Of a DNA stretch of 64,000 nt, positions 5,051 to 31,676 are shown in pieces. A model generated the notes under the pieces. The model worked only from the letters and a program-made list of their open reading frames with translations, ran no database searches and was not told the DNA's origin. This stretch comes from Cyanomargarita calcarea GSE-NOS-MK-12-04C. Lineage in GTDB: Bacteria > Cyanobacteriota > Cyanobacteriia > Cyanobacteriales > Nostocaceae. Every line of letters starts with the position of its first letter. Within the stretch, counting starts at the first letter, position 1. The stretch lies in the NCBI GenBank assembly GCA_019359595.1, contig JAHHGZ010000013.1:62001-126000 (forward strand), read 5' to 3'. The translations under genes were made by a program, and so were the position numbers.

Positions 5051-5054
5051 TTTT

Positions 5055-7466: not shown

Positions 7467-7635
7467 CTCGACAACACAAATTAATTAAAAAAGATTCTTG
7501 ATAATTTTCCCAACTTAATGCTCAACAGTCAACATTGAACAAAGCTATAAAGCCTACAAGTGAGACGTGCGGCAGTTTAGCAGCCTTTAAGGTAACTTAA
7601 GTAATGAAAATACAATAACCTTGAGGTATAAAATT

Positions 7636-8437: not shown

Positions 8438-8605
8438 TTAAGAATTAAAATCTATAATTTATGGAGCGATGCACGTTGATGTTGTAAAATCTTAGTCTGG
8501 CTTTGAAGATAGGCGAGACGCCTGTACTACAATAATAAAAAAATGTGTATTGCAATCTTAACTCCTAATTCTTAACTCCTAACTCCTCACTAACTTTTAT
8601 TGACC

Positions 8606-9634: not shown

Positions 9635-10039
9635 CTTCTGAGATACACATTTTAAAACCCTTGTATAGTGAAGCTTCCAGGGATTCAGGAAAAATGTGTT
9701 TCTTTCATACGTTGCTACCTACGCTTTAGCCGCTAGTTAAAGGCTCACATCTTGCATTAATATGTTATGCAGGAAAATAGCTACTAAATATTTATAGCTT
9801 GGACGACTGCGTTCCGGACGACCAGGGACTAGAAGTCCCTGTCTCATAGCTAAAGTCCTCTTTTAGAGGACTGTTTGAGAATATTTCATTGAGGTCAAAG
9901 AGCGCTACTTAAAACTATTCGATGTTTATTTTCTTTTATTTACACCCGCCCAGATAAAGAATCATATGGTGTGCCGATTTGCTTGTAACTTCTCTGAGTG
10001 AAATTCAAGCTGACACGATCCATAAACTTTAACCTAGGT
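9635..10039. other. Intergenic region with two perfect hairpins
   Basis: I see no coding frame in these 405 bases between convergent genes. AGGGACT/AGTCCCT (9824-9830, 9834-9840; 3-base loop) and AGTCCTC/GAGGACT (9854-9860, 9866-9872; 5-base loop) stand side by side. The phrase 'agtcc...ggact' is repeated with compensating changes. Such paired hairpins are common dispersed elements in cyanobacteria and could act as terminators here. Confidence 0.55.
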
Positions 10040-11182
10040 CTAAATTTTAATAAACCAACGTCGCGAATACATTATATATGCGATCGCCAACCACAAGCAG
10101 ACGGTAACAAGGGCGAAAAATAGGGAACCGTTAAATGCACCAGCCCAAGATGCGAACACATTCTGATAAATCCAATCGAAGGTACTGGGGGCTTTTTCCC
10201 CGATACCAACTTTAGTTTTAACTAAAACTTTAATCAGCAGTACAGAGGCAACAAAAATCGAAATTGCATTCATTCCCAATACTTCAAAGGGTTTGCCCCA
10301 ACGTCGGATTCTCCGCACTTCAATTAATTCGTAGCAACCAGCGAGTAATAATAATGCCCAACCAGTGGTAAATACGACATAAGAACTCGTCCACAGCTTT
10401 TTGTTGATGGGGAATATAAAGTCCCAGCCCCAACCTACAATCAAGCAACCAATGCCAAATAAAGCCAAACCAATACTAGTGCGCGACTGTACAGGTTGAT
10501 TACGTATCCATTGCCCGGTGAAGTAGCCAAAAAGGACGCTGACGACTGCCGGAATTGAACTAAAAAGTCCTTCTGGGTCACCCAAATTTTTAAAGCTTCC
10601 GTGTAAATGTGCTTTCGGAATTACCAAGCGGTCAATATAAGATGCAAAATTCCATTCTTGGACGATTTCTGGCTTTTGTGTCAAGTCGGGAATGCCATGA
10701 CCGGGAATTGGGACATACATCATGACTAACCAATAACCTAGCAGTAATACCACTGCCAGTATCCATTGTCCCTTACGCGGTAGGTTGAGGACTGCCAAAG
10801 ATGCTAACAGGTAGGAAAGGGAAATCCGCTGCAATACCCCCATGATCCGAAGGACGCTGAAGTCAAAAGTCCACGGGCCCTTATTCCAAAAGCCGTTGAG
10901 AAATAACCCCAAAGCAAAGAGAATAGCCGCACGACGCAAAATCCGCCAATATACGGAGGCAGTGGGTTTATTTCCGTCGCTATATTTGGAGAGGGAAAAG
11001 CTCATCGCTACACCGACGATAAACAGGAAGAAGGGAAATACTAAATCTGTTGGTGTACAACCATTCCAATCTGCATGGAGTAGCGGTGCGTAAACATTCG
11101 GTTCCATGACTCCCGCCATATTGACGAGAATCATTCCCGCGATAGTCAGACCGCGAAAAATATCAAGAGATGTCAGGCGCAT
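10040..11182 (-). CDS. Membrane acyltransferase, NagX/heparan-alpha-glucosaminide N-acetyltransferase-like
   Basis: The 380-residue protein has about ten hydrophobic segments and starts RLTSLDIFRGLTIAGMILVN, the hallmark of the COG4299/HGSNAT family (DUF1624/DUF5009). These move acetyl groups across a membrane onto sugar amines. PTDLVFPFFLFIVGVAMSFS (~44-63) is also characteristic. In bacteria these proteins probably modify cell-wall or exported sugars; the substrate here is not known. The ATG at 11182 is the natural start. It is transcribed away from bcp, separated by a long inverted repeat. Confidence 0.8.
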   Translation of the reverse strand: MRLTSLDIFRGLTIAGMILVNMAGVMEPNVYAPLLHADWNGCTPTDLVFPFFLFIVGVAMSFSLSKYSDGNKPTASVYWRILRRAAILFALGLFLNGFWNKGPWTFDFSVLRIMGVLQRISLSYLLASLAVLNLPRKGQWILAVVLLLGYWLVMMYVPIPGHGIPDLTQKPEIVQEWNFASYIDRLVIPKAHLHGSFKNLGDPEGLFSSIPAVVSVLFGYFTGQWIRNQPVQSRTSIGLALFGIGCLIVGWGWDFIFPINKKLWTSSYVVFTTGWALLLLAGCYELIEVRRIRRWGKPFEVLGMNAISIFVASVLLIKVLVKTKVGIGEKAPSTFDWIYQNVFASWAGAFNGSLFFALVTVCLWLAIAYIMYSRRWFIKI

Positions 11183-11189
11183 AAGCTAG

Positions 11190-11325
11190 GTTGAATGAAG
11201 GAAGAAGGAAGAAGGAAGAAGGAAGAAGGAGGTTTATATTTATATATGTGGATACAGGACCCCAACTCAAAACGGACGACCTGCGAAAAGTAACTATTAA
11301 CAAAGAACAGCGAGGATAATATTTA
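11190..11325. repeat. Left arm of a long imperfect inverted repeat
   Basis: Reading outward, this arm has GAATGAAGGAAGAAGG-type repeats, then TTTATATATGTGGATACA, then CCCCAACTCAAAACGGACGACC, then AGAACAGCGAGGATAAT. All of these occur in reverse complement, in mirror order, at 11590-11725. The arms differ by small indels. The arm begins 8 bases upstream of the NagX-like start codon, so it forms that gene's leader. Confidence 0.75.
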
Positions 11326-11422
11326 CTACTTGATTAAACTAAATCTAAATAGTTGCCTAAAATATCTACACATTCAGAATCTTGCATCCTCGCTGCCCTC
11401 AGACTGGAAGTTTGTGTGGTCA

Positions 11423-11455
11423 GATACCCGACTTCGCGCTCATTTGTCGGGTATC
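11423..11455. repeat. 10-bp perfect hairpin element
   Basis: GATACCCGAC (11423-11432) pairs with GTCGGGTATC (11446-11455), with a 13-base loop starting TTCG. The flank GGTCA and the TTCG loop start recur at 39294, where stem changes are compensatory. It belongs to a common cyanobacterial palindrome family. Confidence 0.75.
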
Positions 11456-11589
11456 TCGTCGGTCGAGGTAGATTTTTCTATTGAGATGATATAGTTATGC
11501 CTGGAATTAATGTTGTAAAGCCTTACACAAGTTAAAATCTTGTAAAGAAACTTAAAAACCCAGTTTGTGAAAAAACCGGGTTTCTGGAA

Positions 11590-11725
11590 AAATTGGGGAT
11601 TTTATCCTCGCTGTTCTTGTTGATACCCCGACCGTTCTTAGGTCACTTGTTTTGAGTTGGGGTTTTGTATCCACATATATAAACCTTCTTCCTTCTTCCT
11701 TCTTCCTTCTTCCTTCATTCAATTT
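11590..11725. repeat. Right arm of the long inverted repeat, ending at the bcp start codon
   Basis: It contains ATCCTCGCTGTTCTTG, CCCCGACC, GTTTTGAGTTGGGG, TGTATCCACATATATAAACC and four CTTCCTTCTT-type units, then the bcp ATG. The core GTTTTGAGTTGGGG with TCCTCGCTG also occurs at 40300 and 43920. A second hairpin, AAACCCAG with CCGGGTTT, lies just before it (11550-11583). Confidence 0.75.
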
Positions 11726-12181
11726 ATGGCAGTCAAAGTTGGCGATTCGGCTCCTGATTTTACTCTTACAAACCAAAGCGGCACACCTGTTAGCCTGAAA
11801 GATTTACGAGGCAAAGCTGTTGTTCTTTACTTTTACCCCAAAGACGACACCCCCGGATGTACGGCAGAATCCTGTGCGTTTCGCGACCAGTATGAAGTCT
11901 TTAAAAGTGCTGGGGCTGAAGTTATCGGCGTGAGTGGAGATTCCAACGAATCTCACCAACGCTTTGCAACTAAGTATCAGTTACCATTTACTTTGTTGTG
12001 TGACAAAGGCGACCAAGTAAGAAATTTATATGGTGCAAAAGCTTTAGGTTTTTTACCTGGTCGCGTTACTTATGTAATTGACGCTTCTGGTATTGTGCAA
12101 TACGTGTTTGACTCGATGTTTAACTTTAAAGGTCACGTCGAGGAAGCGTTGAAAATGTTACAGCAGATGGCGGCAAAGTAA
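11726..12181 (+). CDS. bcp: Thioredoxin-dependent thiol peroxidase (Bcp-type peroxiredoxin)
   Basis: A 151-residue peroxiredoxin that reduces H2O2 and organic hydroperoxides with electrons from thioredoxin. The start is ATG 11726 (MAVKVGDSAPDFTL), the conserved beginning; the upstream open frame only runs through the inverted repeat. YPKDDTPGCTAESCAFRD holds the peroxidatic Cys45 and, five residues on, Cys50, the atypical 2-Cys arrangement of Bcp/PrxQ. PrxQ-type enzymes protect the photosynthetic apparatus in cyanobacteria. The gene converges with lrtA/hpf. Confidence 0.93.
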   Translation: MAVKVGDSAPDFTLTNQSGTPVSLKDLRGKAVVLYFYPKDDTPGCTAESCAFRDQYEVFKSAGAEVIGVSGDSNESHQRFATKYQLPFTLLCDKGDQVRNLYGAKALGFLPGRVTYVIDASGIVQYVFDSMFNFKGHVEEALKMLQQMAAK

Positions 12182-12193
12182 GAGTTTTTACAA

Positions 12194-12222
12194 AGGAACG
12201 CAAAGAAATACTCTGCGTTCCT
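12194..12222. terminator. Bidirectional terminator between bcp and lrtA/hpf
   Basis: AGGAACGCA (12194-12202) pairs perfectly with TGCGTTCCT (12214-12222), an 11-base loop. It lies between two convergent stop codons only 57 bases apart. Flanking TTTTTA on the left and AAATTTAT on the right give modest T-runs for each direction. Confidence 0.65.
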
Positions 12223-12238
12223 AGAAATTTATACTCCT

Positions 12239-12892
12239 TTATTTATTCGAGTGTGATTTTTCCGGCATGGGAAGATGAGATACTTTGCCATTTTTGCCGT
12301 TGCCGTTGGTATGACTGTTAGCGTTACGCGGTTGAATTACGCCATAACCACCGTGGTTGCGTTCGTAAATCACGTTAATTTCCCCACTTTCGGAATTGTG
12401 GAACATATAAAAATCGTGTCCCACCATTTGCAGATGTTCTAAAGCCTCTGTAACTGTCATCGGCGGCATGGAAAAATATTTTGTCCGGACGACTTCCGTT
12501 GGTAATTCCGGTGTGCGATCGCCGATTAAATCTCCTATCACCTCAGTAGCAACTATCGTATCTGGTTCAACCTCTGGAGTCTGATTTTTCTTATTTTGTC
12601 GGCGTTCCTTATATTTACGCAGTTGACGAGCAATTTTATCTGCTACTAAGTCAATACTTGCGTATAAACTTTCGCTATTCTCCTCCGCACGAATAACGTT
12701 GCCATTGGCATAAATAGTCACTTCAGCTGCTTGCCTGGGGTTAATTCGGGGATTGCGAGCCACGCTCAAGTGTACATCCACTTCATTTGTGATGCTCTGA
12801 AAGTGATTTACTGCTTTTTCAATCTTTTGATGCACATACTCCCGAATTGCATCGGTGATTTCAATATTTTTGCCGTGGATGACAAGGTTCAT
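12239..12892 (-). CDS. hpf: Long-form ribosome hibernation promoting factor (LrtA-type)
   Basis: A 217-residue protein that dimerises 70S ribosomes in the dark or stationary phase. The N-terminal S30AE domain (1-~105; [20 protein letters not shown]) is joined by a polar linker to the C-terminal dimerisation domain (~142-195; [36 protein letters not shown]). The start is ATG 12892, with GGGAGAG just upstream on the minus strand; a TTG six codons earlier would contain that ribosome site. Cyanobacterial homologues (lrtA) are light-repressed, with a long leader controlling mRNA stability. The ~300-base empty leader upstream fits. Confidence 0.92.
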
Positions 12893-13189
12893 GTAAACTC
12901 TCCCGCTCAATAGTTGATGTGGATTTAGTTAGTATGAAAAAGAGTTGCGGTAATGTCTATCAGTGCCGACAGAAAAAGTTGCGAACAAATAATTTACATC
13001 CAGTCCGTTTCATTCTCATCTTAAAAGTCTCTTTGCGTCAGTTTTTATGATAAGTTTTCAACTGGAAATGATATATCATTCTGATGGTGTGCGATAAACC
13101 ACGCATAAATATTCTAGTAAGCGTAACCTCATCTACTATGCTTCCCACTGCTTGCTAGGCAATCAGCATCGTGCAGATATTGTCTAATC
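12893..13189 (-). promoter_or_regulatory. Putative long 5' leader/promoter of lrtA/hpf
   Basis: No gene is visible in these ~300 bases. The region is AT-rich, includes a run of small direct and inverted segments (e.g. ATGATATATCATT near 13070, a 10-base near-palindrome) and lies directly upstream of a gene whose relatives have long regulated leaders. The regulatory role is inferred from the family, not shown by a motif. Confidence 0.35.
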
Positions 13190-13354
13190 TCACCTTCTTC
13201 TTGGTTTTAGGTTTGCTTGGAATACAGAACGCATGACTTCTTTTAAATTCGATCGCTTACTGAAGATAAACCGAACAGGCACACCATCAACCAGTACATT
13301 TGTTCTTACTTTCTGGGCGTGATGGTTATTGCAGAGAATTCCTCCTGACACCAT
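13190..13354 (-). CDS. Small 54-residue ORF of unknown function
   Basis: An ATG at 13354 opens 54 codons ending at TGA (13190-13192): it begins MVSGGILCNNHHAQKV, continues with VLVDGVPVRFIFSKRSN and ends in a basic PRRR tail. The amphipathic strand-like pattern, CNNHHAQ (possible metal ligands) and a CGATCGC site in frame make it look gene-like. No clear Shine-Dalgarno precedes it. It is on the same strand as lrtA/hpf, about 300 bases upstream, so it could be an upstream small gene. I recognise no family. Confidence 0.4.
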   Translation of the reverse strand: MVSGGILCNNHHAQKVRTNVLVDGVPVRFIFSKRSNLKEVMRSVFQANLKPRRR

Positions 13355-13515
13355 TGAGGTTATGCATTCAAAGTAGCATTTTGTATTTTAGAAAATGAGT
13401 TTCCTTTACTTTCCTTTAAAATCCTTTGCAAAGCTTGAGGTTTATTTACGGCAAATGTGTAATTTGAAACACTTTTTGTTCCCAATATCAGTTGAATTTT
13501 AATTTTATTCGTAGT

Positions 13516-14169
13516 ATGACCTCCCACTCTCATAAATGTTCGTTATATAACCGAGAATTGATGCCCTACTTAATTGCTCATCAATGGCAGCGATCGCTAT
13601 ATGCCGAAAGGATAAAAAATCCCGACTTAGATGATGTGCTGATCTTATTGGAACACCCGTCTGTATATACCTTGGGGCAAGGTGCAACTCTAGAATTTCT
13701 CAAGTTTGATCCTGATAACAGCGAATATGAGGTGCATCGAGTTGAACGAGGTGGTGAGGTTACTTACCATTGTCCCGGTCAACTAGTGGGTTATCCAATT
13801 TTAAATTTGCAACGTTATCGTAAAGACTTGCATTGGTACTTGCGCCAATTGGAAGAAGTATTAATTCGCGTTTTGGCTGTTTACAATTTGCAAGGTGAAC
13901 GGAGTGCCGGCTTTACTGGTGTTTGGCTAGAAGGGCAGAAGGTTGCGGCTATCGGTATCAAAGTTAGTCGTTGGATTACCATGCACGGTTTTGCATTAAA
14001 TGTATGTCCTGATATGACAGGCTTTGAGCGGATTGTACCTTGCGGGATTCAGGATAAACCTGTTTCTTGTTTAGCGCAGTGGATTCCAGATATTAGTTGT
14101 CCAGAAGTGCGATCGCACGTAGCCCAATGTTTTGCACAAGTGTTTGATGTCGAATTCGGCAACGGATAA
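13516..14169 (+). CDS. lipB: Octanoyl-[ACP]:protein N-octanoyltransferase LipB
   Basis: It transfers octanoate from acyl carrier protein to lipoyl domains, the first step of lipoate assembly. The 217-residue protein contains [17 protein letters not shown] (78-94, substrate pocket), the catalytic Lys142 in [12 protein letters not shown] and the acyl-accepting Cys176 in IVPCGI. The start is ATG 13516; ATG 13561 (MPYLIAHQW) would remove 15 poorly conserved residues and is possible. A TTG at 13492 is unlikely. Confidence 0.93.
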
Positions 14170-20323: not shown

Positions 20324-20355
20324 ATGTAGAGACGTTACATATCACGTCTCTACAT
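20324..20355 (-). terminator. Hairpin overlapping the stop codon of the WD40 gene
   Basis: ATGTAGAGACG (20324-20334) pairs with CGTCTCTACAT (20345-20355), an 11-bp stem with a 10-base loop. The right arm contains the stop codon of the last operon gene (20350-20352). No T-run follows, so it may be a processing/stability element at the operon end. Confidence 0.5.
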
Positions 20356-21837
20356 AAGTTGATAAATATTAATTAGTTGGTCTTTACTACCACTCACAAT
20401 AGTTTGACCATCTGGACTAATAGCAACACAATAAACTTCCTTGGAATGACAATCTAAACTAGAAAGTAATTCACCCGTACTCAATTTCCAGAGTTTAACA
20501 GTTTTATCTCCACTACCACTCAGAAGGGTTTTTCCATCAGGACTAATCGCAACGGACCAAACCTCTTTTAAATGACCTGTGAGGGTGTGTTGTAATTCCC
20601 CTGTATTTAGGTTCCACAGCCTAATAGTATGCTTAATACTACCACAAGCAAGAGTTTCTCCATCCGGACTAATAGCAACTGACCAAAATAAATCGGAATA
20701 TCCAGAAATAGTTCTAATTAATTCCCGAGTATCTAGATTCCATAGTTTGATAGTATTATCAAAACCGCTGCTAGCAAGAACATATCCATTGGGGCTAAAA
20801 ACAAGTGAAATAACTGCACCATGATGTCCAGTAAAAGTTTGAAGTAATTCCCCAGTTTCTAGATTCCAAATTTTAATAGTTTCGTCACGACTACCACTAG
20901 CAATAAGTTCTCCATTTGGACTCACGGCAACACAATCAATCCAACCCGAATGACCAGTTAGAAAATTTTTTAATTTGCCGTTGGTGATTTTCCAAATCTT
21001 AATAGTTTCATGATCGCTACCACTAACGAGGGTTTCCCCATCCGGACTAATAGCAACAGAATTAAACCTAGAATATCCACTAATAGTATTAATGATTGTT
21101 CCTGACTGTAAATCCCAAATTTTGATTGTGTTATCAAAACCCCCGCTAGCCAAAACATTACCTTGAGGACTTATAGCAATGGAACGTATTGAGTTTGTAT
21201 GTCCGGTTAAAGTATGTAATAATTTAGGTATTGGTGTTTCTTCAATACCTTCCTCAAAATCTCCATCGCTGGGTGAAGTGCTAGCAAAATTCAATCTACC
21301 AGGTTCTACTAACATCCATTGCTCTCCCCCTGCTGCTAAAGAGACTGTGGCAGGTTTTATCAAAGTAAATTCGCTGTCTGAATTTACTTCATAACCATCG
21401 CATTCAAATAGAGATTTAACTGTTTGATAGTTATAGGTGTCAATCCTGAGATTAGCTTTAGGTAATAGCCAGTAATTATCATCCTCTGTAGCGACAATCC
21501 AATAATTACCTTTTTTTCTTTCTGCCAAAAAGATAGAGTTACTAGATTTTTTTAACAAGCTATCTTCTGTTAATGAAACTTTTAATACTTTATTGAATAA
21601 AGCTGAACAATCATTATTGTAAAGTTCTACTAATTCTGGTTCTGAATAATTAATCTTAATAATGTTAGGTCTTTCCAAAGAGCCAGTTACCGACACTGCA
21701 TCTGTGTCAATTAAATTATTTCCTTGTTGTAAAGACTTCTCAACAAAAATTAACCTACGTTCTAATTGATGAATTGTCTCAATTAGGTAGTTAATCTTTT
21801 CTTCCAGTTCTGCAAAATTTTGCTCAGAATCTGCCAT
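20350..21837 (-). CDS. WD40-repeat protein with GNYW-type N-terminal domain (operon gene 6)
   Basis: The 495-residue protein has a short coiled coil (5-40), then at ~64-184 the ~115-residue domain shared with the two genes upstream (ERKKGNYWIV, YWLLPKANLRIDTYNY, FTLIKPATVS). After an acidic linker, seven WD40 repeats (~208-495) each end like IKIWDL or VKLWKL. The propeller is probably a binding platform for the other operon products. No signal peptide or TM is seen. It starts 8 bases after the stop of the lipoprotein gene, so translational coupling is likely. The function is not known; the shared domain implies it acts with its neighbours. Confidence 0.8.
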   Translation of the reverse strand: MADSEQNFAELEEKINYLIETIHQLERRLIFVEKSLQQGNNLIDTDAVSVTGSLERPNIIKINYSEPELVELYNNDCSALFNKVLKVSLTEDSLLKKSSNSIFLAERKKGNYWIVATEDDNYWLLPKANLRIDTYNYQTVKSLFECDGYEVNSDSEFTLIKPATVSLAAGGEQWMLVEPGRLNFASTSPSDGDFEEGIEETPIPKLLHTLTGHTNSIRSIAISPQGNVLASGGFDNTIKIWDLQSGTIINTISGYSRFNSVAISPDGETLVSGSDHETIKIWKITNGKLKNFLTGHSGWIDCVAVSPNGELIASGSRDETIKIWNLETGELLQTFTGHHGAVISLVFSPNGYVLASSGFDNTIKLWNLDTRELIRTISGYSDLFWSVAISPDGETLACGSIKHTIRLWNLNTGELQHTLTGHLKEVWSVAISPDGKTLLSGSGDKTVKLWKLSTGELLSSLDCHSKEVYCVAISPDGQTIVSGSKDQLINIYQLM

Positions 21838-21845
21838 ATTTCCAA

Positions 21846-23210
21846 TTAAAATTCTAGCACTCCGTAGTCAGCAAGTTCCCACATTTTTTGACCAATGGCA
21901 GAGACTCTTGCAGGTCTGACAAGTTGAAAGTCACTGGAGTAACCAGGACGGTAACTATGACAATCAAACAATGCTTCAACTGTTTCATAGTTATATTCAT
22001 TTATTTTGATATTCCCTTTTGGAAGCAAGTAGTCTACACCTTGTTCAGATACAATCCAATAATTACCTTTGCCTTTGCCAACTTTTTCCAAAATTGCTGC
22101 ACGATCGCTACCAACACGACGTTGATTAATGCTTTCTTCTGTTTCTGAAACTTCTATAGCAATTTTTAACAATGAATTACGATTTTTATTATAAGCTCCA
22201 ACTAGGATACTTTCAGGAGAATTAAAATTTTCATTTGCAATTCTTTGCTGACTGTGAGAATCTGGAGTGTAAACTTCTTCCGAGAATTTCAGTGGTGTAA
22301 TTTCTATACCCTTTGTCGGTGAAGGTGAAGTATGTTGCTCCATAGATATCTGAGGAGAAACTGATTCCTTCAGATGACCATATACTTGCTTGTTAGGAGC
22401 CAAATTTTGTTTATTGTTTCTATGTTCTTGTTTGGGATTAGCATAACGATCTTTATAAATAAACATTGCGATCGCTCCGATAATTATACCAGCTACAAAG
22501 GAGACAAGAGAGAGTGCTAACAAGCCGGATGAGGACTTTTGTGAGTTTTGATTCTCTACTCCTAAATTGCGATTGTTATTCGGAATATTCTCAATTGGCT
22601 TAGTATCAGTAGCGACTGTTCCTAACTGTTGAATTTGATTGCTTAAATCTTCACTTTTTTTAGTTAGATATTCTTGAATTTCACCTTGAGTTATTTTACC
22701 AAAGGAGCCTTTGTTGCGACTAACTTCAGGATTTTTATCAATTCCAAGAGTTTCTTGTATTTGTTTAACAGCTTTAAAATTTAAACCGCTTTTTAAAGGT
22801 TCAATAACCTTTAAAATATCTTGAATTGTATTATCTATATTTGTTAAAATGTTGCTGTTTACATCAGATGTTAGTATTGTTTTCCGGAAATTATTATTTT
22901 CTAAACTCAGTTGTTGCAGCTTTTCCAATGTTGCACTAGAATTTACATCCTTTTTGTCTATTTTTTGATTAACTACTTGTTGAAGTTGAATCAATAATTC
23001 ATCAAGTGCAAGCTTAAATTCGCTAGATATAGTTCTAAGTTGACTAACCTCTGAAACTGTATTTTGAGACGCTCCACTATTACTTTGGATAGTAATTAGT
23101 TTCGTGGTATCACTTTCATCGGCACGGTTTTGTACTGGTTGACAGCCAATTAAGAAACTAGGAACTATCAGTAATGCCAGTAATGATTTATAAATTGTTC
23201 GTTTTGCCAT
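21846..23210 (-). CDS. Lipoprotein/TM protein with C-terminal GNYW-type domain (operon gene 5)
   Basis: The 454-residue protein (ATG 23210; a GTG two codons earlier is possible) has a signal ending LIVPSFLIGC, a lipobox-like site at Cys23. A helical region with two LxxLxxxN-rich heptads (~65-180) follows, then one TM (~229-252, LLALSLVSFVAGIIIGAIAMFIY), a polar linker and the shared domain (~332-454: TEESINQRRVGS, GKGKGNYWIVSEQG, VDYLLPKGNIKINEYNY, FQLVRPARVS). The TM would put the helical part outside and the shared domain in the cytoplasm. That topology could couple an envelope sensor to cytoplasmic partners. Confidence 0.75.
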   Translation of the reverse strand: MAKRTIYKSLLALLIVPSFLIGCQPVQNRADESDTTKLITIQSNSGASQNTVSEVSQLRTISSEFKLALDELLIQLQQVVNQKIDKKDVNSSATLEKLQQLSLENNNFRKTILTSDVNSNILTNIDNTIQDILKVIEPLKSGLNFKAVKQIQETLGIDKNPEVSRNKGSFGKITQGEIQEYLTKKSEDLSNQIQQLGTVATDTKPIENIPNNNRNLGVENQNSQKSSSGLLALSLVSFVAGIIIGAIAMFIYKDRYANPKQEHRNNKQNLAPNKQVYGHLKESVSPQISMEQHTSPSPTKGIEITPLKFSEEVYTPDSHSQQRIANENFNSPESILVGAYNKNRNSLLKIAIEVSETEESINQRRVGSDRAAILEKVGKGKGNYWIVSEQGVDYLLPKGNIKINEYNYETVEALFDCHSYRPGYSSDFQLVRPARVSAIGQKMWELADYGVLEF

Positions 23211-23256
23211 TAACACCCCACTTTCTAACTTTGAATAAAACTACCTATCCATTAAA

Positions 23257-24522
23257 TTAAAATTTCAGTACACCAAGTTTTGTAAGTTGCCATTTTTCTG
23301 GTTCGATAGGAGATACTATTGCAGGTTGAAGGAGGATGAATTTACTATTATAATTATCTCCCTGCTCTTTAATACACTCAAACAAAGTTTGAACTGTTGC
23401 TATATTATATTGATTTATTTTTAGATAAGCTTTAGGGACTAAATAGAATTCAGTATTACTTTTAGGTAATATCCAATAATTTCCCTTACCCCGACGAGAG
23501 TTTTCTAGAATTACTGGTTGATTCGTTCCCAGACGACGCTGATTAATATTTTCTTCTGTTACTGATACTTCTGTTGCATGTTGGGATAAGGATTCTGGGT
23601 CTTGATTGTAAGTTATTAGCCAGGGAATATCTGAAAAAGCATCAGGCTCATTTTCAGAAGCTTGTTGTGGAATATCTTCCGGTTGAATTTGATAATTTTG
23701 GTTGACTTCATAACCTGTCATCCTCTCGGCAGGGGGAGTATTACTATTGGTATTTAAATTAGTTTTGATTTCTTTGATTTCAGTGAATAATATCGCTAAA
23801 TTATCATTGATTTGCTGTAACTGCGATTCAACTAGGTTGTTATTTTCTAATACAGGCTGAGTAGAGATTTTACGCTCGATTAAATTAGCCACTTGGGAGG
23901 GAATTAGCAGTATCGTTTGTTCCAGTTTCTCTATCTGAGACTGGGATTGTAATTCATTTCTACTTGATGGTTGTCTATGTGCTGCAGTCGGTGTTAAATT
24001 AGGTTGAATATGTTGTTTTTGTAACTCAGATATTCGTTTGGACAGATTATTAGTGAATGCGGAGAATATATGCTGACTGTTCGGTACAATCGAGACGTTT
24101 AATTCTCTTAAATCAGATTCAAGTTTGCTAAACTCTTCGAGTAATCGCTTAGATTGAGATTGAACAAGTGATAATTGCTTTTCTAACTCTTTAATCTGAG
24201 ACTGCAATCGCTGGATTTCATCTTCATCTTGCTTCTGCGAATTATCCGCAACCTGATTAAAAACGTCGTCTGTTAAAGATGAATGGTGACGATTGAAGTC
24301 TTGATTTGATTTTGCCGACTGCTGCTTTAATTGCGAGTATTCTTTATATAACTTATTTGCCCATACAAGCAACTCGTGTTGTAGTGACTCCGATTTTCCA
24401 GAAGCCATTTTTTCCCACAAACTATAGCTGATAGAAGGAGGTATTACAGGAAAGCCACAGTTTGAACAATCTTTATGATTTTTAGTGTCAACTTGAGTTC
24501 CACAAACTGGACATGGTGACAT
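23257..24522 (-). CDS. Zinc-ribbon coiled-coil protein with C-terminal GNYW-type domain (operon gene 4)
   Basis: The 421-residue protein opens with a zinc ribbon, CPVCGTQ (Cys4, Cys7) and CSNCGFP (Cys19, Cys22). It continues with long coiled coils (~55-140, EIQRLQSQIKELEKQLSLV; and ~185-260) and ends with the shared domain (~302-421: TEENINQRRLGT, RRGKGNYWILPKSN, YLVPKAYLKINQYNI, FILLQPAIVS). No TM. It is probably a cytoplasmic adaptor. A 144-base gap with a HIP1 site separates it from the upstream ATPase gene and could hold an internal promoter. Confidence 0.75.
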   Translation of the reverse strand: MSPCPVCGTQVDTKNHKDCSNCGFPVIPPSISYSLWEKMASGKSESLQHELLVWANKLYKEYSQLKQQSAKSNQDFNRHHSSLTDDVFNQVADNSQKQDEDEIQRLQSQIKELEKQLSLVQSQSKRLLEEFSKLESDLRELNVSIVPNSQHIFSAFTNNLSKRISELQKQHIQPNLTPTAAHRQPSSRNELQSQSQIEKLEQTILLIPSQVANLIERKISTQPVLENNNLVESQLQQINDNLAILFTEIKEIKTNLNTNSNTPPAERMTGYEVNQNYQIQPEDIPQQASENEPDAFSDIPWLITYNQDPESLSQHATEVSVTEENINQRRLGTNQPVILENSRRGKGNYWILPKSNTEFYLVPKAYLKINQYNIATVQTLFECIKEQGDNYNSKFILLQPAIVSPIEPEKWQLTKLGVLKF

Positions 24523-24666
24523 AAGTATAATTGCTCTCCTTGAATTTCAGTACTGACTTCTCAGTTGGCGATCGCTATCGCTCTTCAGTATATCTCTCTA
24601 TCAGCTTGTGCTGTTGCTAACTTAGGAAATAGCAAGCAGACAGCCTTGTCAAAACTTAAGAAAACT

Positions 24667-27600
24667 TTATTTTGACCATTTGTCTGCCCAATCCTTACCT
24701 AAAACCCGCATTAAGGCCTTTAAAGCCAATATATAGGGAGGCTCTAAGCGAATGTTATCTGATTTACCTTTGATTTTCAGCAAGATGTTAGTCAATTCTC
24801 GCTTAGTGTCATCCCAAAGTTTTTTATTATCTTGGGGATTTGGACTGCGTTTGTACCCCTCCAGCGGTTTTATTCCCTCAATTTCTAAGTCTCTCAAAGC
24901 TACATGAAAGTCATATAGAAACTGTGGCAATATTGCTAATTCTGGAATTGTAAATTGCTCAACATTATCCTCATCTTCTTGTAATTCCAATCGAGCATCC
25001 CAATTAATTAATCTGCCATTAATCTCACAATCTTCTCCTGCAATTAATGGGTCTTTTACTTTTTTCTTTAGTCCTTGGAGTTTGGTTTCACTCAATACCA
25101 AACCGCAAGCAACTTCATCTTTTAAATTCTGACTCAATCGTGTTTTTACTTCTGTATCTTCAAAGCCAGAACCTTTACTCAACATTCTACTTAGTAATTC
25201 ATTCACCTCAGAATGACGGTTAAATTCACCTCCTTCAGCAAGCCAGTGTAAAAATCTACCCCCATTTCCACCGATGTAAACAGGAGTAATTTCACTACGT
25301 CGATACTTCTCTTCTACGTGTAAAGTTTTCAGCAAAATTCCTACATAATAATATAACCCAGCTGTGCCAATTGCCGTGAGTTGTATCAATTCTTGAAAAT
25401 CTGGCTTTTCTGATACAAATGCTCTTTGACTATTGAGCCAATTATCACCTTCCAATCGCAGCCATACATCTAATTTGGGATTAAATGCTGTACCTTTGAG
25501 TCCTTTTAATTCAGTCGCATCAATCCCAAATGTCCGCTGCATAAACTTAGGATTTATCTCTAAAAATTGCGAAAATAAATCCCTACCTGCAAACAAAACT
25601 GAACACTGATGTACTAAATTTTCTTCTTCCCAAATTGATATATCCGAAGTTCCTCCACCCACATCAATACAGGTAGTATTAACTAAATCATGACCTTCCT
25701 GGTCGGCAAAATATTGAGCTACAGCTAAACTTTCAGAACGGAAGTAATCTAAATTATCGACTTCTGGACAAAGATGAATAATTCCTGTTTTACTTTGCAA
25801 TTCTTTGGTTAAATCTTGCCATGTTTTCGCATATTTATTTTTGTCACTGCGAGAAAAAGCAGAGGGAAAAGATAAAGACCATTGAATCTGTTTTACCCGA
25901 TTCTTTGCTGCTATAGCTGTAATGTGTAGGGCTAAGTGTTTGAGAAATAACTGATTGAAACTTAAATTTTGTGGATCTTCCCACTTCAAATTTGTTTTGA
26001 TCCAGTCTTCTTGAGGCTTGAATCTGTTGCGATCGGGCACATAAATTCGACCGTCAAAAACTGGACGTAATTTTTCATGACTAACCCCGGAATTCCCTCT
26101 AATTGTCAGTACACTAGATAGAGGTAATGGCTTTTCTACAGGGATAAAGTTTTCTGGGATAAAGTATTCATACAGCAGTGGTAAGCGAGTTTCTGGGTTA
26201 AATTCTGTGATTTTGAGATGCAAATTCTCAAGTTTCAATGGTTCCGCAGCACCTGTCCTATTGACATAGACATTGGTAAAAGAAGTCCCAAAATCGACGC
26301 CAATTTTCCATGTAGTTGTGGGCTTAGTTTCTTTCGGAGGTTGCAAAAGAATCAGACCGACAGTTGTCCTTCTATCTTTGGTCTGACATTGAATAAAAGA
26401 TGGAAATTTTTCCAGAATAGACATTTGATAAGAACCTCTACCATCTTCAAAGTCGTAGGGTTGCTTTGCTTCTGGTAAAAACACCTGAAAAGTATCCTTT
26501 CCATGTTCACCATCATAGTAAAATGCGTGATAGGATTTCCAGCCTTCCGAGCGGAAATTCGGCCATACTTCTAAGACGGGTACTTCAGCAAGGGCATTTT
26601 CTTCTTTGATGAAATAATCTTTCTGCAAGCGGAAATTAGTTGGGGGATTGCCATCCTTTAAACCAGCAAGAGGCAAATCCAAAATAACTCGCACTTGGGG
26701 CCCATTATTATCATTAAAGGGTTGGAGTTTAATTTTTTCAATTAAATCTTCTGGGGTGAAATAATCTAACAAAATTGGATTTAGGGGAAGAAGTGGGGTA
26801 ATCCGCTCACCCTCGAAAGTTAAAGGTAATATTTCTTTAGGGAGAAAAGCCCCTGGCAAGGCATCTTCTTGGTTGATAAAACAAAATTCTGCTAAAAATA
26901 AATCCTTGGATTCACAGTATCTAACATCCTGCCAAACAATTTTTTTGCTGCGTAAATCATCCACCTTTAAAGATGCGAGAGTTTTGCCTCCATGAACCCA
27001 GATATGTTGCGGTGATTCATGCCATCTATCGGCAATTTCTGTGTCAATAATTAGTAAATCAATTACTTTACCTTTTTCTAAGCTAGGAATTAAACGGACA
27101 CTGGATGGTTTTTCCGGTGCTTTAACAGGAAAATTTAGAGCAGTTAATACCCCACGATTCAGGGGAACGCCAAAAAACTGCGGGTCTTCAGTTAAACTCA
27201 GAGGTGGCTCATTATCTGCATTTAATTCTGCCCGAAAGTCGTCAATTAATCCACCAATTCTATTAATTGCAGCCTTCCTACCTCCATATTTATTTAACTC
27301 CATGCGGATATTTTCTAACCAACGCCATAATAGAGATTTTTCACTTGAGTTAAGATATTTAATTGGAGAACGCAATCTCCCATCTGACCACCAAGGTAAA
27401 CCTTTCCATTGTCCCTCTTCTGAAGGAGAAACTAAGGTACTTGGTGAAGTCATTCCGACGGCTTTGTTATCCCATAAAAATATGTAAATATCTTCCCAGG
27501 GATGCTTATTTTCTAAGGTGTAAAGAGTATTGCCGTCAAAAGGTAAAAGCTCATATAAAGAACGGGCAAAATCTTCATGTCTTAACTTGCTAAGTTCTAC

Positions 27601-27936
27601 CAATTGTGCAATTAAGGGAAAACCACGCACCTCAGCTAAAGCGATCGCAGCCAACATCCCCTGCCACTGCTCAATCATTTGGTTGCGAATAGCATACTGA
27701 TCATTATGGAGTGCCATTTCCATCGACAAGGGACGTGCCCACATTGTCGGGACGGAACTAACATTCTTCACCTCTCTCGGGGCTTTATACTCTAAGCTAG
27801 AAGCCACATCTTGAAATGCTTTTCTTTTTTGTGCCTGCCATTTTCCGGCTTCATCAATCGGCTTAACGTCAGAATCTGGCTTTAATCTTGGTAGAAAAAA
27901 ATGCAACTTTTTGTTACCTGGTTGTGTGTTTGTCAT
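24667..27936 (-). CDS. Large protein with C-terminal actin/Hsp70-type ATPase domain (operon gene 3)
   Basis: A 1089-residue protein. The C-terminal half is an actin/Hsp70-fold ATPase: phosphate-1 loop VDFGTSFTNVYV (547-558), ESLAVAQYFADQEG (735-748), phosphate-2 loop CIDVGGGTSDISIW (756-769) and adenosine loop YIGGNGGRF (887-895). Residues 1-540 match nothing I know; they are mixed alpha/beta, rich in Trp and Pro, with no signal peptide or TM. No Hsp70 substrate-binding domain is visible after the ATPase. It starts 10 bases after the tubulin-like gene. It likely hydrolyses ATP as a switch or filament; its substrate and partner remain unknown. Confidence 0.8.
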   Translation of the reverse strand: MTNTQPGNKKLHFFLPRLKPDSDVKPIDEAGKWQAQKRKAFQDVASSLEYKAPREVKNVSSVPTMWARPLSMEMALHNDQYAIRNQMIEQWQGMLAAIALAEVRGFPLIAQLVELSKLRHEDFARSLYELLPFDGNTLYTLENKHPWEDIYIFLWDNKAVGMTSPSTLVSPSEEGQWKGLPWWSDGRLRSPIKYLNSSEKSLLWRWLENIRMELNKYGGRKAAINRIGGLIDDFRAELNADNEPPLSLTEDPQFFGVPLNRGVLTALNFPVKAPEKPSSVRLIPSLEKGKVIDLLIIDTEIADRWHESPQHIWVHGGKTLASLKVDDLRSKKIVWQDVRYCESKDLFLAEFCFINQEDALPGAFLPKEILPLTFEGERITPLLPLNPILLDYFTPEDLIEKIKLQPFNDNNGPQVRVILDLPLAGLKDGNPPTNFRLQKDYFIKEENALAEVPVLEVWPNFRSEGWKSYHAFYYDGEHGKDTFQVFLPEAKQPYDFEDGRGSYQMSILEKFPSFIQCQTKDRRTTVGLILLQPPKETKPTTTWKIGVDFGTSFTNVYVNRTGAAEPLKLENLHLKITEFNPETRLPLLYEYFIPENFIPVEKPLPLSSVLTIRGNSGVSHEKLRPVFDGRIYVPDRNRFKPQEDWIKTNLKWEDPQNLSFNQLFLKHLALHITAIAAKNRVKQIQWSLSFPSAFSRSDKNKYAKTWQDLTKELQSKTGIIHLCPEVDNLDYFRSESLAVAQYFADQEGHDLVNTTCIDVGGGTSDISIWEEENLVHQCSVLFAGRDLFSQFLEINPKFMQRTFGIDATELKGLKGTAFNPKLDVWLRLEGDNWLNSQRAFVSEKPDFQELIQLTAIGTAGLYYYVGILLKTLHVEEKYRRSEITPVYIGGNGGRFLHWLAEGGEFNRHSEVNELLSRMLSKGSGFEDTEVKTRLSQNLKDEVACGLVLSETKLQGLKKKVKDPLIAGEDCEINGRLINWDARLELQEDEDNVEQFTIPELAILPQFLYDFHVALRDLEIEGIKPLEGYKRSPNPQDNKKLWDDTKRELTNILLKIKGKSDNIRLEPPYILALKALMRVLGKDWADKWSK

Positions 27937-27946
27937 AAGCGACTTT

Positions 27947-29458
27947 TTAGAGTCTAGAGAGAATATAAAGAGCTTTAGCCAGTCCTGCCGTACCTTGATT
28001 TGGTGGCATGAGATTTTTGGGTTCAGATATTAGATTTACGTGCAAACTCTGTACTGTATCTTGCGATTGTTTACCTTTATCTCGACTATCACTTATTACT
28101 AAATTGGGAAATTCTTCTTGTTTGAGTTGGACTTCAGAATTCATAAAAGAACGAGACATAAATAGTTGCACATTATCACCTTCACAAAGATGAAGTTCCG
28201 ACAACCAGCGCAAATAATCTTTACACCAATTGCTGACAATTGTTATTGTTTCTTGTTCATTTGTGTCACCAAACTCTGGTAAATCCTCTCCCCTCTTGAT
28301 GAAAAATCCTTGTTTAGGACGAAAAAACCTGCTAAACCAAGTAATATATTTTTGTGCCCACTCAATGCCATTATCTTTTGCATCCTTCAAGTCTGGAGCA
28401 GTCTTAGCTAGCCAAGCATAAGCAAATCTCGTGGCATTAACTAATTCAGCTTTAATTATACTTTGCTCTGGAATATCGCTCCAACCTAATACCTCCAGCC
28501 GATCCCGACCAATTAACATCACCGTGCCAGACATAACAGTTGGACTCAAAAAAAACTGTCGGGCTGCAGATGCGGCATATAATTCAATAAAATGTGACTC
28601 ATTGCGTTGTTCGTTTTTGCCGATACTAAACTTCACTTGCTTGAAGTTTTGATTACCCAATAAATACACCGTATCAAAGATATCTTCGGCTTGACTTTCA
28701 TAGTATCTCAAAGCCGCTTCTGTATTTAGCAAAAATAAATCTGATTGAGCATAAACCCCATCTGGGTCTTTACCTGCATCTGGTGAAAAGCCAAAATAAG
28801 GTAGCATGAATAAACACCCTACCTTAACGCGATCGCGGACGTTAATCTTTTTCAATTTATTCGCAATTAAGCGACCGATAGTCGGCAAGCCAGAGGCACC
28901 AGTACCCCCAAACATGGAACCACACAGAAAAATTTTGGTAGGTTTTCCTGCACCCACATCCGATTGAATTTGACTAATTAACGTCCCCCAAGGCTCATTG
29001 TCTAAAGCATCCAAATCTACCTGACTCATGATTGCCGAACCAATCGCAGGTCTACCCCGAAAACCTACATCTAAGACAACATCCCGCTCTTCTTGCGTAT
29101 ATAGAACATCAAATAAATTCCCCAAACCTTGATAATTTTGTTTGAGATTGTTGTAATTAAAAAATGAGCCAAGAGTCCGATTCGTACTTGTTTCGTTAAA
29201 GGGTGACCATAAATCATACGATTCAATAGGAGTCTTCATCCAAGAAGCTTGCTGTTTCTCACCCTCCTGTAATTTAAAGCATTTTTGATAAACATTTAAA
29301 CTGCTGCGAGTCCGTTCTACATTGCCATTACTTTCATCTGCATCAATAAACAATATCCTAATCGGTTCTTCCGCAAACAACCCGATAGATGCCAAATGAA
29401 TTACTGACTCAATACACTTAGCACCAGTCCCACCAATACCAATAATATAAAATGCCAT
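27947..29458 (-). CDS. Tubulin/FtsZ-like GTPase (tubulin-2-type family; operon gene 2)
   Basis: The 503-residue protein begins AFYIIGIGGTGAKCIESVI, with the nucleotide-binding first loop GIGGTGAK (7-14). The tubulin signature loop is GSMFGGTGASGLPTIG (180-195, core GGTGASG). GFRGRPAIGSAIM (132-144) is also typical of the tubulin-like family that is distinct from FtsZ and TubZ. I do not see the classical NxDxxD T7 catalytic loop, so self-stimulated GTP hydrolysis in a filament is uncertain. It is coupled to the 4-TM gene (4-base gap) and to the ATPase gene (10 bases). Related FtsZ-like families have been predicted to remodel membranes. Confidence 0.82.
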   Translation of the reverse strand: MAFYIIGIGGTGAKCIESVIHLASIGLFAEEPIRILFIDADESNGNVERTRSSLNVYQKCFKLQEGEKQQASWMKTPIESYDLWSPFNETSTNRTLGSFFNYNNLKQNYQGLGNLFDVLYTQEERDVVLDVGFRGRPAIGSAIMSQVDLDALDNEPWGTLISQIQSDVGAGKPTKIFLCGSMFGGTGASGLPTIGRLIANKLKKINVRDRVKVGCLFMLPYFGFSPDAGKDPDGVYAQSDLFLLNTEAALRYYESQAEDIFDTVYLLGNQNFKQVKFSIGKNEQRNESHFIELYAASAARQFFLSPTVMSGTVMLIGRDRLEVLGWSDIPEQSIIKAELVNATRFAYAWLAKTAPDLKDAKDNGIEWAQKYITWFSRFFRPKQGFFIKRGEDLPEFGDTNEQETITIVSNWCKDYLRWLSELHLCEGDNVQLFMSRSFMNSEVQLKQEEFPNLVISDSRDKGKQSQDTVQSLHVNLISEPKNLMPPNQGTAGLAKALYILSRL

Positions 29459-29462
29459 TCCT

Positions 29463-29939
29463 TCAGTTCCTAAATAGACGACGCATTAAAAACGCACCAG
29501 GGGGAACAAAACTTAAACCTCCGGGAGAACTTGTTGCCGTAGTAAACCAATAAAGGAACAGAATATCGAGAACAAAAAAGCTAGTTAAAGACAAAAGTGC
29601 TTCATCGCTTCCCTTAAAAAAGACGATGGCAATAATAATACTCAAAACAGGTAATAAGAAAATTATCCACCACACCACAGACCACTTCTCAACATCCTTC
29701 CCTCCTTTCACTTGAGCTTTAGCAGCCAGTAAATACCACAGCACCGTTGCAACGAGCGAAGCAAAAAATACAACATATGCTCCTGGCATATAATAGTTGC
29801 TTACCCAGGCATCGACAGGCACACTTCGCAACCGTACAAAAGGAAATTTGCTTCGGTAAATCCAAGGTTGCCCCAAAAACATCAAAACTGAGCCGATGAG
29901 GCTGAAAACTATGATCCGAATCCACTCACTCGTTCTCAT
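29463..29939 (-). CDS. Four-TM membrane protein (operon gene 1)
   Basis: The 158-residue protein has hydrophobic segments at ~8-24, ~53-72, ~88-108 and ~113-133, and a basic, Gly/Pro-rich tail (FVPPGAFLMRRLFRN). Four TM helices put both ends on the same side. It has no recognisable domain. As the first gene before the tubulin-like GTPase it may be the membrane anchor for that protein. Composition and Shine-Dalgarno are not informative. Confidence 0.7.
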   Translation of the reverse strand: MRTSEWIRIIVFSLIGSVLMFLGQPWIYRSKFPFVRLRSVPVDAWVSNYYMPGAYVVFFASLVATVLWYLLAAKAQVKGGKDVEKWSVVWWIIFLLPVLSIIIAIVFFKGSDEALLSLTSFFVLDILFLYWFTTATSSPGGLSFVPPGAFLMRRLFRN

Positions 29940-30290
29940 AAGTACAGGTTCGATTTCAGTACTGTTTTAAAAACATATTATAAACCGGGAAACCTTTTTG
30001 CTACATTCAGTAAGAAGAGAAAAGTAGTAATATTTACCTTTTTTTATAAATAGTATCTTGACTTAGTAACTAAGAGGTGATAAGAAAATTTAGTTCTAGA
30101 CTTGAATGTTCTAGCAAAAAGCTCGTTCTGTTCCTTCTAAAAGATTGGTGGTAACTTCTGCCCACCATATCATTGGGTTGGCAACGGCGATCGCATTTAA
30201 GTTATTTTTATAGCTTAAATGCGTGCTAGAGTATGGGCGTAGTACAAACTTTTTTATACGAGTAATATTAATTACTAACTTGTGTGTAAA
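29940..30290. promoter_or_regulatory. Divergent promoter region of the tubulin/actin-like operon and the MIDAS lipoprotein gene
   Basis: A 351-base region with no gene serves both directions. Its main feature is the palindrome at 30192-30223; another is a HIP1-overlapping site at 30188-30195. An AT-rich run (TTTTTTATAC, 30250-30259) lies 30-40 bases before the plus-strand start. Promoter elements cannot be assigned with certainty. Confidence 0.5.
30192..30223. promoter_or_regulatory. 32-base palindrome (possible operator) in the divergent promoter
   Basis: CGCATTTAAG (30192-30201) pairs perfectly with CTTAAATGCG (30214-30223). Inside, TTAT pairs with ATAG including one T-G pair, leaving a TTTT loop, so the whole is a 14-pair stem. 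It sits 68 bases before the plus-strand start and 250 before the minus-strand operon. It could be an operator for a dimeric repressor or an RNA hairpin in the lipoprotein mRNA leader. Confidence 0.6.
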
Positions 30291-31676
30291 ATGATTCGAG
30301 TAAAATCGTTAGTATTGGCGATCGCTACATCGATGTTAGTGGTAGCTTGCAGTCTTGAGAATGAAAAAATCACCTGCGATTTATCCTTAACTAGTATTCA
30401 GTCTCCCCAGTCGCAAAACCTCAGCATTTTTATGTATGTAGACGGGACTCCATCTATGCGGGGATATGTAAATCCTCAAAATACTAAAACTCGCTATGCT
30501 CAAACAATAGATTTGCTAGACCAAATATTATTTGCTGGTGGAACAGTTGCACCTAGAACAAAATCTCAACTCGAATACTATCGTTTGGGAGAAACCAGTG
30601 CAAAAACTGACCGTGATGGATATCTGAAAGCAAGAGATTCTAAATTTTATGATGGTACTGACCCAAAATTTCCCCCACTAAAAGTTAGTAAAATTGAAAC
30701 TGCGATTACTCCTGCTATTGATGGTAAACTGACAGTTATTGTGACTGATTTATATCAAGATGGGGAAGATGTCACTAAACTTAATAAAAAAATCAGAGAT
30801 AATTACTTTAATGCCAATCAAGTAGGATATGCAGTCGGTATTTTAGGAATCAAAAGTGAATTTAATGGCGATATTTTTCTAGAAGATGGCAGTAACAGAA
30901 ATTTTAAATATAATACCAATGATGCTCAAGGTAATAAAGTTAAGGGTCAAGAATTTCGACCTTTTTATATAATTTTCCTTGGTCATTCTAGTGATATAGC
31001 TCACTATTTTAAAAATCTCAGCGATAGTAAAAAATTACCTGAAGATAGTAAATTAGCTATTTTTTCGCCAAATAATTTAGTCAGCGGCTTATCTTATCTC
31101 CAAGGTTATCCTAAACTCCCAGAAGGTTTTAAAACTAGACCACAAGAACTGGGTGATGCCAATGTCATACTAGCAGGAGATGATAAGAGTCAGCTTTTAG
31201 AATTAGAAAGTAATATAAATAATCCTTTAAATATTAATTATAGTGTTCCATTTCAGAGCATCAACAATACATTATTGATAGAATCGAATTCTCTCCAGAC
31301 AGAAACAAAAGTTCAGAGTTTTGATTCGATTGAGAAAAAGTTTAAAGAACCTCCCAATAATTCCTCACTGCTAAAAGCATTGGAACTCAGCAAATGGCAA
31401 ATAGATAATAACAAAAATTTAAACTTTGTCACAACAATCAAACCCAGCGATATTCCAGAAACCGGAATTTATAAATTCACCGTTGATGTGCTAGCTAAAG
31501 GTGTACAAGAGCAAAAATGGTGGTCTGAATGGAGTGCAAATAACAATACCAGTAATGATTGGAGAACCTATAACTTGCAACCCTTTTTACAGGGATTAAA
31601 ATCTAGTACTGACGATATTCTGAAAAATAATAAAGTTGTAGTTGGTCGTTTTTGTTACGGAATTCAGAAGAATTAA
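30291..31676 (+). CDS. Lipoprotein with von Willebrand A-like MIDAS motif
   Basis: The 461-residue protein (ATG 30291) has a signal ending LVVAC, with lipidated Cys20. The metal-ion-dependent adhesion site reads FMYVDGTPSMRGYV (Asp51-x-Thr53-x-Ser55), a variant of DxSxS. The second acidic loop is VIVTDLYQDGED (149-160), where vWA domains have their last MIDAS Asp; IETAIT (135-140) could give the Thr. The following ~300 residues have a strand-rich region with no known domain. It is exported, membrane-anchored and divergent from the operon; vWA-type proteins often accompany FtsZ-like and MoxR-like NTPases. It is probably an outer partner of the machine. Confidence 0.75.
   Translation: MIRVKSLVLAIATSMLVVACSLENEKITCDLSLTSIQSPQSQNLSIFMYVDGTPSMRGYVNPQNTKTRYAQTIDLLDQILFAGGTVAPRTKSQLEYYRLGETSAKTDRDGYLKARDSKFYDGTDPKFPPLKVSKIETAITPAIDGKLTVIVTDLYQDGEDVTKLNKKIRDNYFNANQVGYAVGILGIKSEFNGDIFLEDGSNRNFKYNTNDAQGNKVKGQEFRPFYIIFLGHSSDIAHYFKNLSDSKKLPEDSKLAIFSPNNLVSGLSYLQGYPKLPEGFKTRPQELGDANVILAGDDKSQLLELESNINNPLNINYSVPFQSINNTLLIESNSLQTETKVQSFDSIEKKFKEPPNNSSLLKALELSKWQIDNNKNLNFVTTIKPSDIPETGIYKFTVDVLAKGVQEQKWWSEWSANNNTSNDWRTYNLQPFLQGLKSSTDDILKNNKVVVGRFCYGIQKN

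Follow-up and report, generated by a model that had tools for sequence, protein, structure and literature searches.

A mobile cyanobacterial locus combining a tubulin-like GTPase, an actin/Hsp70-type ATPase and a vWA-type lipoprotein

What kind of system is encoded by a locus in which a tubulin-like GTPase and an actin/Hsp70-type ATPase occur in the same operon, beside a divergent gene for a lipoprotein with a metal ion-dependent adhesion site (MIDAS) motif? The question is raised by a stretch of 64,000 nucleotides (the window) from the 7.9-Mb genome of the cyanobacterium Cyanomargarita calcarea GSE-NOS-MK-12-04C (G000; contig JAHHGZ010000013.1, positions 62,001–126,000, forward strand), which by its GTPase is close to Westiellopsis, Calothrix and Anabaena. 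A sequence-only reading of this DNA had proposed a single envelope-associated system with two nucleoside triphosphatases (NTPases) of different folds, and the seven open reading frames (ORFs), intergenic gaps (8, 40, 144, 10 and 4 bases) and motifs on which it was built could all be confirmed. The GTPase is called TUB here, the ATPase HSP, a membrane protein with four transmembrane (TM) segments TM4, and a domain shared by three further proteins TAIL; L and G numbers are labels of the loci and genomes that were compared.

As to its composition, the vWA-type lipoprotein, TM4, TUB, HSP and the TAIL adaptors are inherited together as one unit. TUB homologues are present in 7 of 60 sampled genomes of the family, in 15 of the 217 family genomes overall and in 25 of 291 genomes of the class, and exactly the same 25 class genomes possess HSP, which within the family is found in 16 of the 217 genomes, including all 15 that have TUB. 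The hypergeometric probability of this overlap is about 1e-36 for the class and 1e-22 for the family, values that exaggerate the surprise because related genomes are not independent. Of 36 mapped TUB loci, 34 have TM4 directly upstream of TUB and 33 have HSP no further than one or two ORFs after it; 30 contain a vWA-type gene (divergent in 16, co-directional in 14) and 27 have recognisable TAIL genes. The genes flanking the locus are not conserved. Since the gene order is found in more than 30 cyanobacterial loci, the arrangement is beyond chance. The four core proteins also agree in their pairwise distances, which are correlated (Mantel r = 0.90–0.98, with none of 2000 permutations as high). 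Scattered and unlinked homologues, named beforehand as the observation that should count against a single system, were clearly not seen; identical phyletic sets, kept gene order and correlated distances instead support the proposal. The genes and their main features, in window positions, are the following.

30282..31676, plus strand: vWA-type lipoprotein of 464 amino acids (aa), with signal peptide and lipobox Cys, MIDAS motif DGTPSM and VTD strand
29940..30281, no strand: spacer between the divergent vWA-type gene and the operon, promoters presumed
29463..29939, minus strand: TM4, membrane protein of 158 aa with four TM segments (hydropathy, position)
27947..29458, minus strand: TUB, GTPase of the tubulin/FtsZ superfamily (Tubulin_2), 503 aa (Pfam, profiles)
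28889..28909, minus strand: T4 GTP-binding loop GGTGASG of TUB, residues 184–190 (sequence; the same in all 10 aligned homologues)
24667..27936, minus strand: HSP, 1089 aa, an N-terminal region of about 540 aa followed by the actin/Hsp70-type ATPase domain (motifs, profiles)
26263..26304, minus strand: phosphate-1 loop IGVDFGTSFTNVYV of HSP, residues 545–558 (motif alignment)
25630..25674, minus strand: phosphate-2 loop TCIDVGGGTSDISIW of HSP, residues 755–769 (motif alignment)
23257..24522, minus strand: adaptor with zinc ribbon, coiled coil and TAIL, 421 aa
23260..23622, minus strand: TAIL copy 1, in the zinc-ribbon/coiled-coil adaptor
21846..23216, minus strand: lipoprotein/TM protein of 456 aa, the C-terminal TAIL of which is predicted to face the cytoplasm
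21849..22205, minus strand: TAIL copy 2, in the lipoprotein/TM protein (structure model, mean predicted local distance difference test score, pLDDT, 93.7)
20350..21837, minus strand: protein with coiled coil, TAIL and WD40 beta-propeller, 495 aa, an accessory adaptor
21286..21633, minus strand: TAIL copy 3, in the WD40 protein

The assignment of TUB as a tubulin-type GTPase is backed by sequence profiles. Pfam Tubulin_2 matches the protein at 1.1e-7, above the family cut-off, and loops T1 (GIGGTG), T3-like (GFRGRPAIG, opposite GAGGNPxIG of FtsZ) and T4 align with FtsZ; TUB has the tubulin-type GTPase domain with T4 loop (GGGTG[ST]G) by which the FtsZ/tubulin superfamily is recognised. Its profile is nearer to FtsZl1 (probability 96%, 2.4e-9 for cyanobacterial FtsZl1) than to FtsZ, and the alignment with the latter is unreliable past T4, where the invariant Asp of LTWxDIPD is a mere candidate for the H7/T7 region. 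Searches of PDB sequences with the TUB, HSP and vWA-type profiles gave nothing significant. The window genome contains two further, longer Tubulin_2 proteins elsewhere: an FtsZl1 of 1092 aa with a PBP-like protein nearby (L218, G000:C82) and a 913-aa protein directly adjoining a 610-aa vWA protein (L219, G000:C14). Another short kind is represented by two nearby tubulin-like ORFs of about 510–550 aa in L220 (G170:C42; 8352–9890 and 10382–12031), possibly a heterodimer-like pair.

For HSP, an alignment of 35 sequences revealed all five motifs that define the actin/Hsp70 ATPase superfamily, in the order phosphate-1, connect-1, phosphate-2, adenosine and connect-2, and these are kept as far as Prevotella. 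The profile matches MreB and DnaK moderately (MreB 83%, 9.1e-6, spanning connect-1 to phosphate-2); matches to FtsA/MreB are weak. The ordered motifs and the moderate profile match thus uphold the proposed actin/Hsp70 character, while the fold is neither confirmed nor refuted by an AlphaFold2 model from 4 sequences, whose mean pLDDT of 37.9 kept it out of the fold searches. Pfam PF00012 does not match HSP, and in the stretch of only some 140 residues that follows connect-2, a substrate-binding domain of the classical Hsp70 kind was not seen; membership of SrfB or PF00012 was considered and found to be without Pfam support. Loops P1 and/or P2, intact in the HSP of the window, are altered in second HSP copies of three TUB loci and in the copy of genome G414. 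The second copies lie within TAIL gene arrays (L014, 17443–19641; L078, 12685–15669; L262, 16827–19019), have degenerate nucleotide loops such as DFRNDYTS and IGNAVSN, and in one case are fused to TAIL. From their sequences, the copies with altered loops, that of G414 included, are probably inactive pseudo-ATPases. The sequence-only reading, partly supported as a whole, is overstated where it calls the two NTPases cytomotive.

Hydropathy predicts a signal peptide for the vWA-type protein, the homologous start of which is probably the ATG at 30291, and four TM segments for TM4. The vWA-type alignment has D-x-[STA]-x-S-M and [TS]D in every cyanobacterial row, and in Prevotella the first D is replaced by E. 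A profile comparison with vWA domains gave 60% and 8.9e-5 (controls 0.1–0.5%), and no Pfam vWA model reaches any of the members scanned, so that the label is founded on the MIDAS residues together with a profile match of moderate strength, and the assignment is likely rather than certain. More generally, Pfam and NCBIfam contain no family that scores above its curated cut-off for HSP, the vWA-type protein, TM4 or TAIL. When the spacer between the vWA-type gene and TM4 was scanned for a conserved regulatory motif, one clade proved to share an AT-rich TATTAAGTAA-TTTAC block and nothing else was found.

The adaptors have in common TAIL, a domain of about 118 aa that was confirmed in the three window proteins for which a common domain had been claimed, at residues 69–184 of the WD40 protein, 338–456 of the lipoprotein/TM protein and 301–421 of the zinc-ribbon/coiled-coil protein. 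Pfam recognises the WD40 part at 1.2e-79 and the zinc ribbon weakly (0.0045), and hydropathy indicates a signal peptide and one TM segment (232–250) in the 456-aa protein. The recurrent loci have 1–5 TAIL-carrying proteins, and the 66 copies in 57 proteins of the first set of loci follow three main layouts: zinc ribbon, coiled coil and TAIL; signal peptide/lipobox, TM segment and TAIL; and coiled coil, TAIL and a variable end (such as WD40, a second TAIL or HSP). A WD40 part occurs in 2 of 52 TAIL proteins and is therefore a variable accessory, not part of the core. The domain is specific to the system and almost confined to genomes with TUB, which is also present in 18 of 20 TAIL genomes in a 282-genome sample; all three TAIL copies of the window genome lie within this operon. 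Its structure is modelled confidently, and a fold search against the PDB gave nothing with E < 0.001 (best VIA Z 2.0, DUF402), a lack of matches that does not make the fold new. In the most distant cyanobacterial clade a diverged TAIL (96%, 4.1e-9) is accompanied by added Reg_prop beta-propeller proteins, so beta-propellers are recurrent partners though the WD40 gene is not core. Nuclease-related (NERD) proteins also recur near the system in the distant f24 clade, alongside the Reg_prop proteins and downstream of HSP (L091, 1864–2988; L094, 15024–16181). A lone TAIL protein, its N terminus signal-like, is encoded at the identical place in two Picosynechococcus-type chromosomes, one of them without TUB (L221, 6461–8047; L222, 6296–7924).

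The locus is an accessory, horizontally mobile one that moves between bacteria on plasmids. It is carried by plasmids of Gloeothece verrucosa PCC 7822, three Picosynechococcus strains and NIES-970, all five of which also encode HSP. The TUB tree is partly in conflict with the host families, with at least three changes required for f36, and one genome has two TUB copies of different clades. As expected of an accessory locus, several copies look interrupted, with transposase genes between TUB and HSP pieces in L017 and with TUB or HSP in pieces in L075 and L265. A search of phages and viral contigs for homologues found none. Outside the Cyanobacteriota, Prevotella oral taxon 299 has an operon for a MIDAS-like lipoprotein, a 147-aa membrane protein, TUB, a 1158-aa HSP and two further proteins, one of coiled-coil and one of zinc-ribbon/TM type, in which TUB (5e-29), HSP (1.2e-21) and the vWA-type protein (9.6e-7) match the cyanobacterial profiles. 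Since this operon of a member of the Bacteroidota is homologous, the architecture is common to two phyla. The 147-aa protein resembles TM4 in position and size only, with no match in sequence, and TAIL does not match the two downstream Prevotella proteins. The latter, a coiled-coil/beta and a zinc-ribbon/TM protein after HSP (L129, 17067–18496), have an adaptor-like layout, their sequences being not detectably alike.

Two relatives connect HSP with predicted conflict systems. In G414, a genome without TUB, HSP has an N-terminal effector-associated domain (EAD) of type EAD8 (1e-21) and an altered phosphate-2 loop, and the surrounding operon (L295, G414:C1:8512000-8531000, 3053–13929) encodes EAD8-trypsin, EAD8-NACHT and EAD8-iSTAND proteins, MoxR, a CoxE-type vWA protein and a receiver-domain protein. 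By the published grammar of such systems, the effectors of which are typically inactive modules (PMC7159879), the EAD8 domain makes this HSP an EAD-coupled effector. In Westiellopsis prolifica (L018, 9512–18911), TM4-TUB is followed by a cassette of iSTAND pieces, MoxR and SAV_2336/CoxE-vWA and then by HSP, which forms an in-frame fusion with a 303-aa module of conflict-system type; the vWA lipoprotein and TAIL genes are missing and an ISH3 transposase lies upstream. The module carries a P-loop NTPase in the window genome and, as we read the sequences, FGS-like domains in three relatives, a name that is not a search result. This case may be a recombination accident, because the iSTAND of L018 is broken.

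We give an even chance to the locus encoding an envelope-anchored, mobile, NTP-driven machine of the conflict type, most likely for surveillance of, or response to, invaders or envelope insult. The vWA lipoprotein would sit at a membrane's outer face, where it binds a ligand or partner as a sensor or an anchor, and TM4 would relay its state to TUB. The latter may assemble at the membrane in a GTP-dependent way, possibly as filaments, and HSP, cycling ATP, might bind and remodel the assembly, roughly as FtsA acts on FtsZ. TAIL would be a dedicated docking module for variable partners, i.e. the membrane-spanning lipoprotein, the zinc-ribbon coiled coil, a beta-propeller sensor or a second, inactive HSP, a logic comparable to that of EADs, with which no sequence relationship of TAIL was detected. 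Such a conflict-type system would be analogous to the predicted tubulin/vWA GTPase systems; the linkages of HSP to conflict systems speak for it, as do the altered loops of the extra HSP copies, which recall the typically inactive effectors of PMC7159879. Several observations weigh against such a role. The linkages of HSP to conflict systems are only two (L295 and L018), one with the broken iSTAND, and they fit two readings: the TUB-HSP machine may itself be a conflict system, or conflict systems may borrow a part from a cellular machine, in which case the borrowed HSP could mean mere copying of a module from a machine that is not immune. Furthermore, no PADLOC model matches TUB, HSP, TM4 or the vWA protein, and among 108 flanking proteins, examined for defence islands, PADLOC hits are few and broad (PD-T4-6, mad3) and Pfam families mostly housekeeping. 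A wider claim can be made only tentatively, namely that the locus represents an undescribed class of immune or surveillance machines of Cyanobacteriota and Bacteroidota, in which tubulin-type and actin-type NTPases jointly assemble or remodel under the control of an outer-face vWA lipoprotein, TAIL docking makes sensors and effectors interchangeable, and inactive copies of the ATPase pass to and from EAD/MoxR conflict systems.

Next to surveillance or conflict in our ranking of roles comes membrane remodelling, a cytoskeletal function in vesicle formation, membrane domains or cell shape as proposed for FtsZl1/vWA operons; here TM4 would anchor, and HSP modulate, filaments of TUB that bend or organise the membrane. 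We think this rather unlikely, although FtsZ and FtsA are a known tubulin/actin pair, one of the two additional Tubulin_2 loci of the window genome adjoins a vWA protein, and the pairing of Tubulin_2 and vWA with TM partners is that of the operons in PMC2875224; a locus found in just 7–12% of sampled genomes, borne on plasmids, repeatedly interrupted (L017, L075, L265), equipped with variable, effector-like adaptors and with its HSP recruited to an EAD8 operon fits poorly with such a function. Less likely still is a role in envelope protein quality control or export, in which a chaperone-like HSP would work with TUB and TM4 to refold proteins or pass them through the membrane to the vWA lipoprotein. 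The Hsp70-type ATPase motifs, the co-chaperone-like combination of zinc ribbon and coiled coil and the outer-face lipoproteins would suit this, but the substrate-binding domain is not seen, a DnaJ/GrpE partner is missing, tubulin-type GTPases are not known to take part in export, and apparently inactive HSP copies are kept. Mobile-element maintenance, by TubZ-like partition or addiction that aids plasmid persistence, is very improbable, since for all its presence on five plasmids and patchy occurrence on chromosomes most copies are chromosomal, the Gloeothece plasmid has its own ParA/ParB, a DNA-binding partner gene is absent, and the vWA lipoprotein and membrane adaptors are ill-fitting.

If both NTPases are active, they would join FtsZ-FtsA as a natural tubulin-actin pair, one encoded by a small mobile operon that is transferable to a laboratory strain. 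If the conflict role is true, the locus would fill a gap in cyanobacteria, where GTPase-centric systems are nearly absent, and make a cytoskeletal-type assembly an immune device. That role is directly testable thanks to the fusions of HSP with EAD8 and MoxR-vWA cassettes, and TAIL offers a handle for finding further members and partners.

Tubulin-fold and actin-fold NTPases are also encoded side by side in the case of FtsZ and FtsA. The present locus resembles that pair in the close linkage of the two types, and differs in the N-terminal region of HSP, in not being composed of division genes and in its patchy distribution. With TubZ plasmid partition it shares a tubulin-like GTPase that is sometimes plasmid-borne, but it has envelope components and no DNA-binding adaptor. 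The complete gene set was described in no paper of the literature searched, which mostly excludes subscription journals and preprints; the earlier statement that no characterised system has this exact set holds in that respect, although its themes had been foreseen (PMC7159879) or described (PMC2875224). Tubulin/vWA and HSP70 themes were predicted by Kaur et al. (2020; PMC7159879) in the GAP1-N2 DO-GTPase conflict systems, where they do not overlap and which are nearly absent from cyanobacteria. The locus follows their combination logic (NTPases, tubulin, HSP70, vWA, zinc ribbons, TM proteins) and has adaptor-coupled variable parts, but unites tubulin and HSP70 in one operon; membership of the GTPase-centric group was rejected, Pfam recognising no DO-GTPase or GAP1-type protein among the seven window proteins. 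The iSTAND-MoxR-vWA ternary systems (PMC7159879) are similar in that operons of this kind harbour the HSP module in two relatives, once with EAD8, and were rejected as a class for the window operon, which is without MoxR, iSTAND, CoxE-vWA and EAD, genes found around HSP only in L018 and L295. Together with the GAP1-N2 systems, the closest parallel is offered by the FtsZl1/vWA operons described by Makarova and Koonin (2010; PMC2875224, in which Hsp70 is not mentioned), where a Tubulin_2 superfamily GTPase likewise stands next to a vWA protein and TM partners. Neither membership of the FtsZl1 family (TUB has 503 aa, against mostly 850–1100 aa in cyanobacterial FtsZl1) nor an FtsZl1/vWA system proper was accepted, the vWA-type protein being present and no P-loop GTPase being recognised among the seven window proteins. 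Unlike FtsZl1, TUB lacks a long coiled-coil or helical C-terminal part, and its partners are an actin/Hsp70-type ATPase instead of a P-loop GTPase, together with the TAIL adaptors. The locus is thus best placed with the tubulin/vWA NTPase systems as a variant, with a fair chance that it forms a class of its own.

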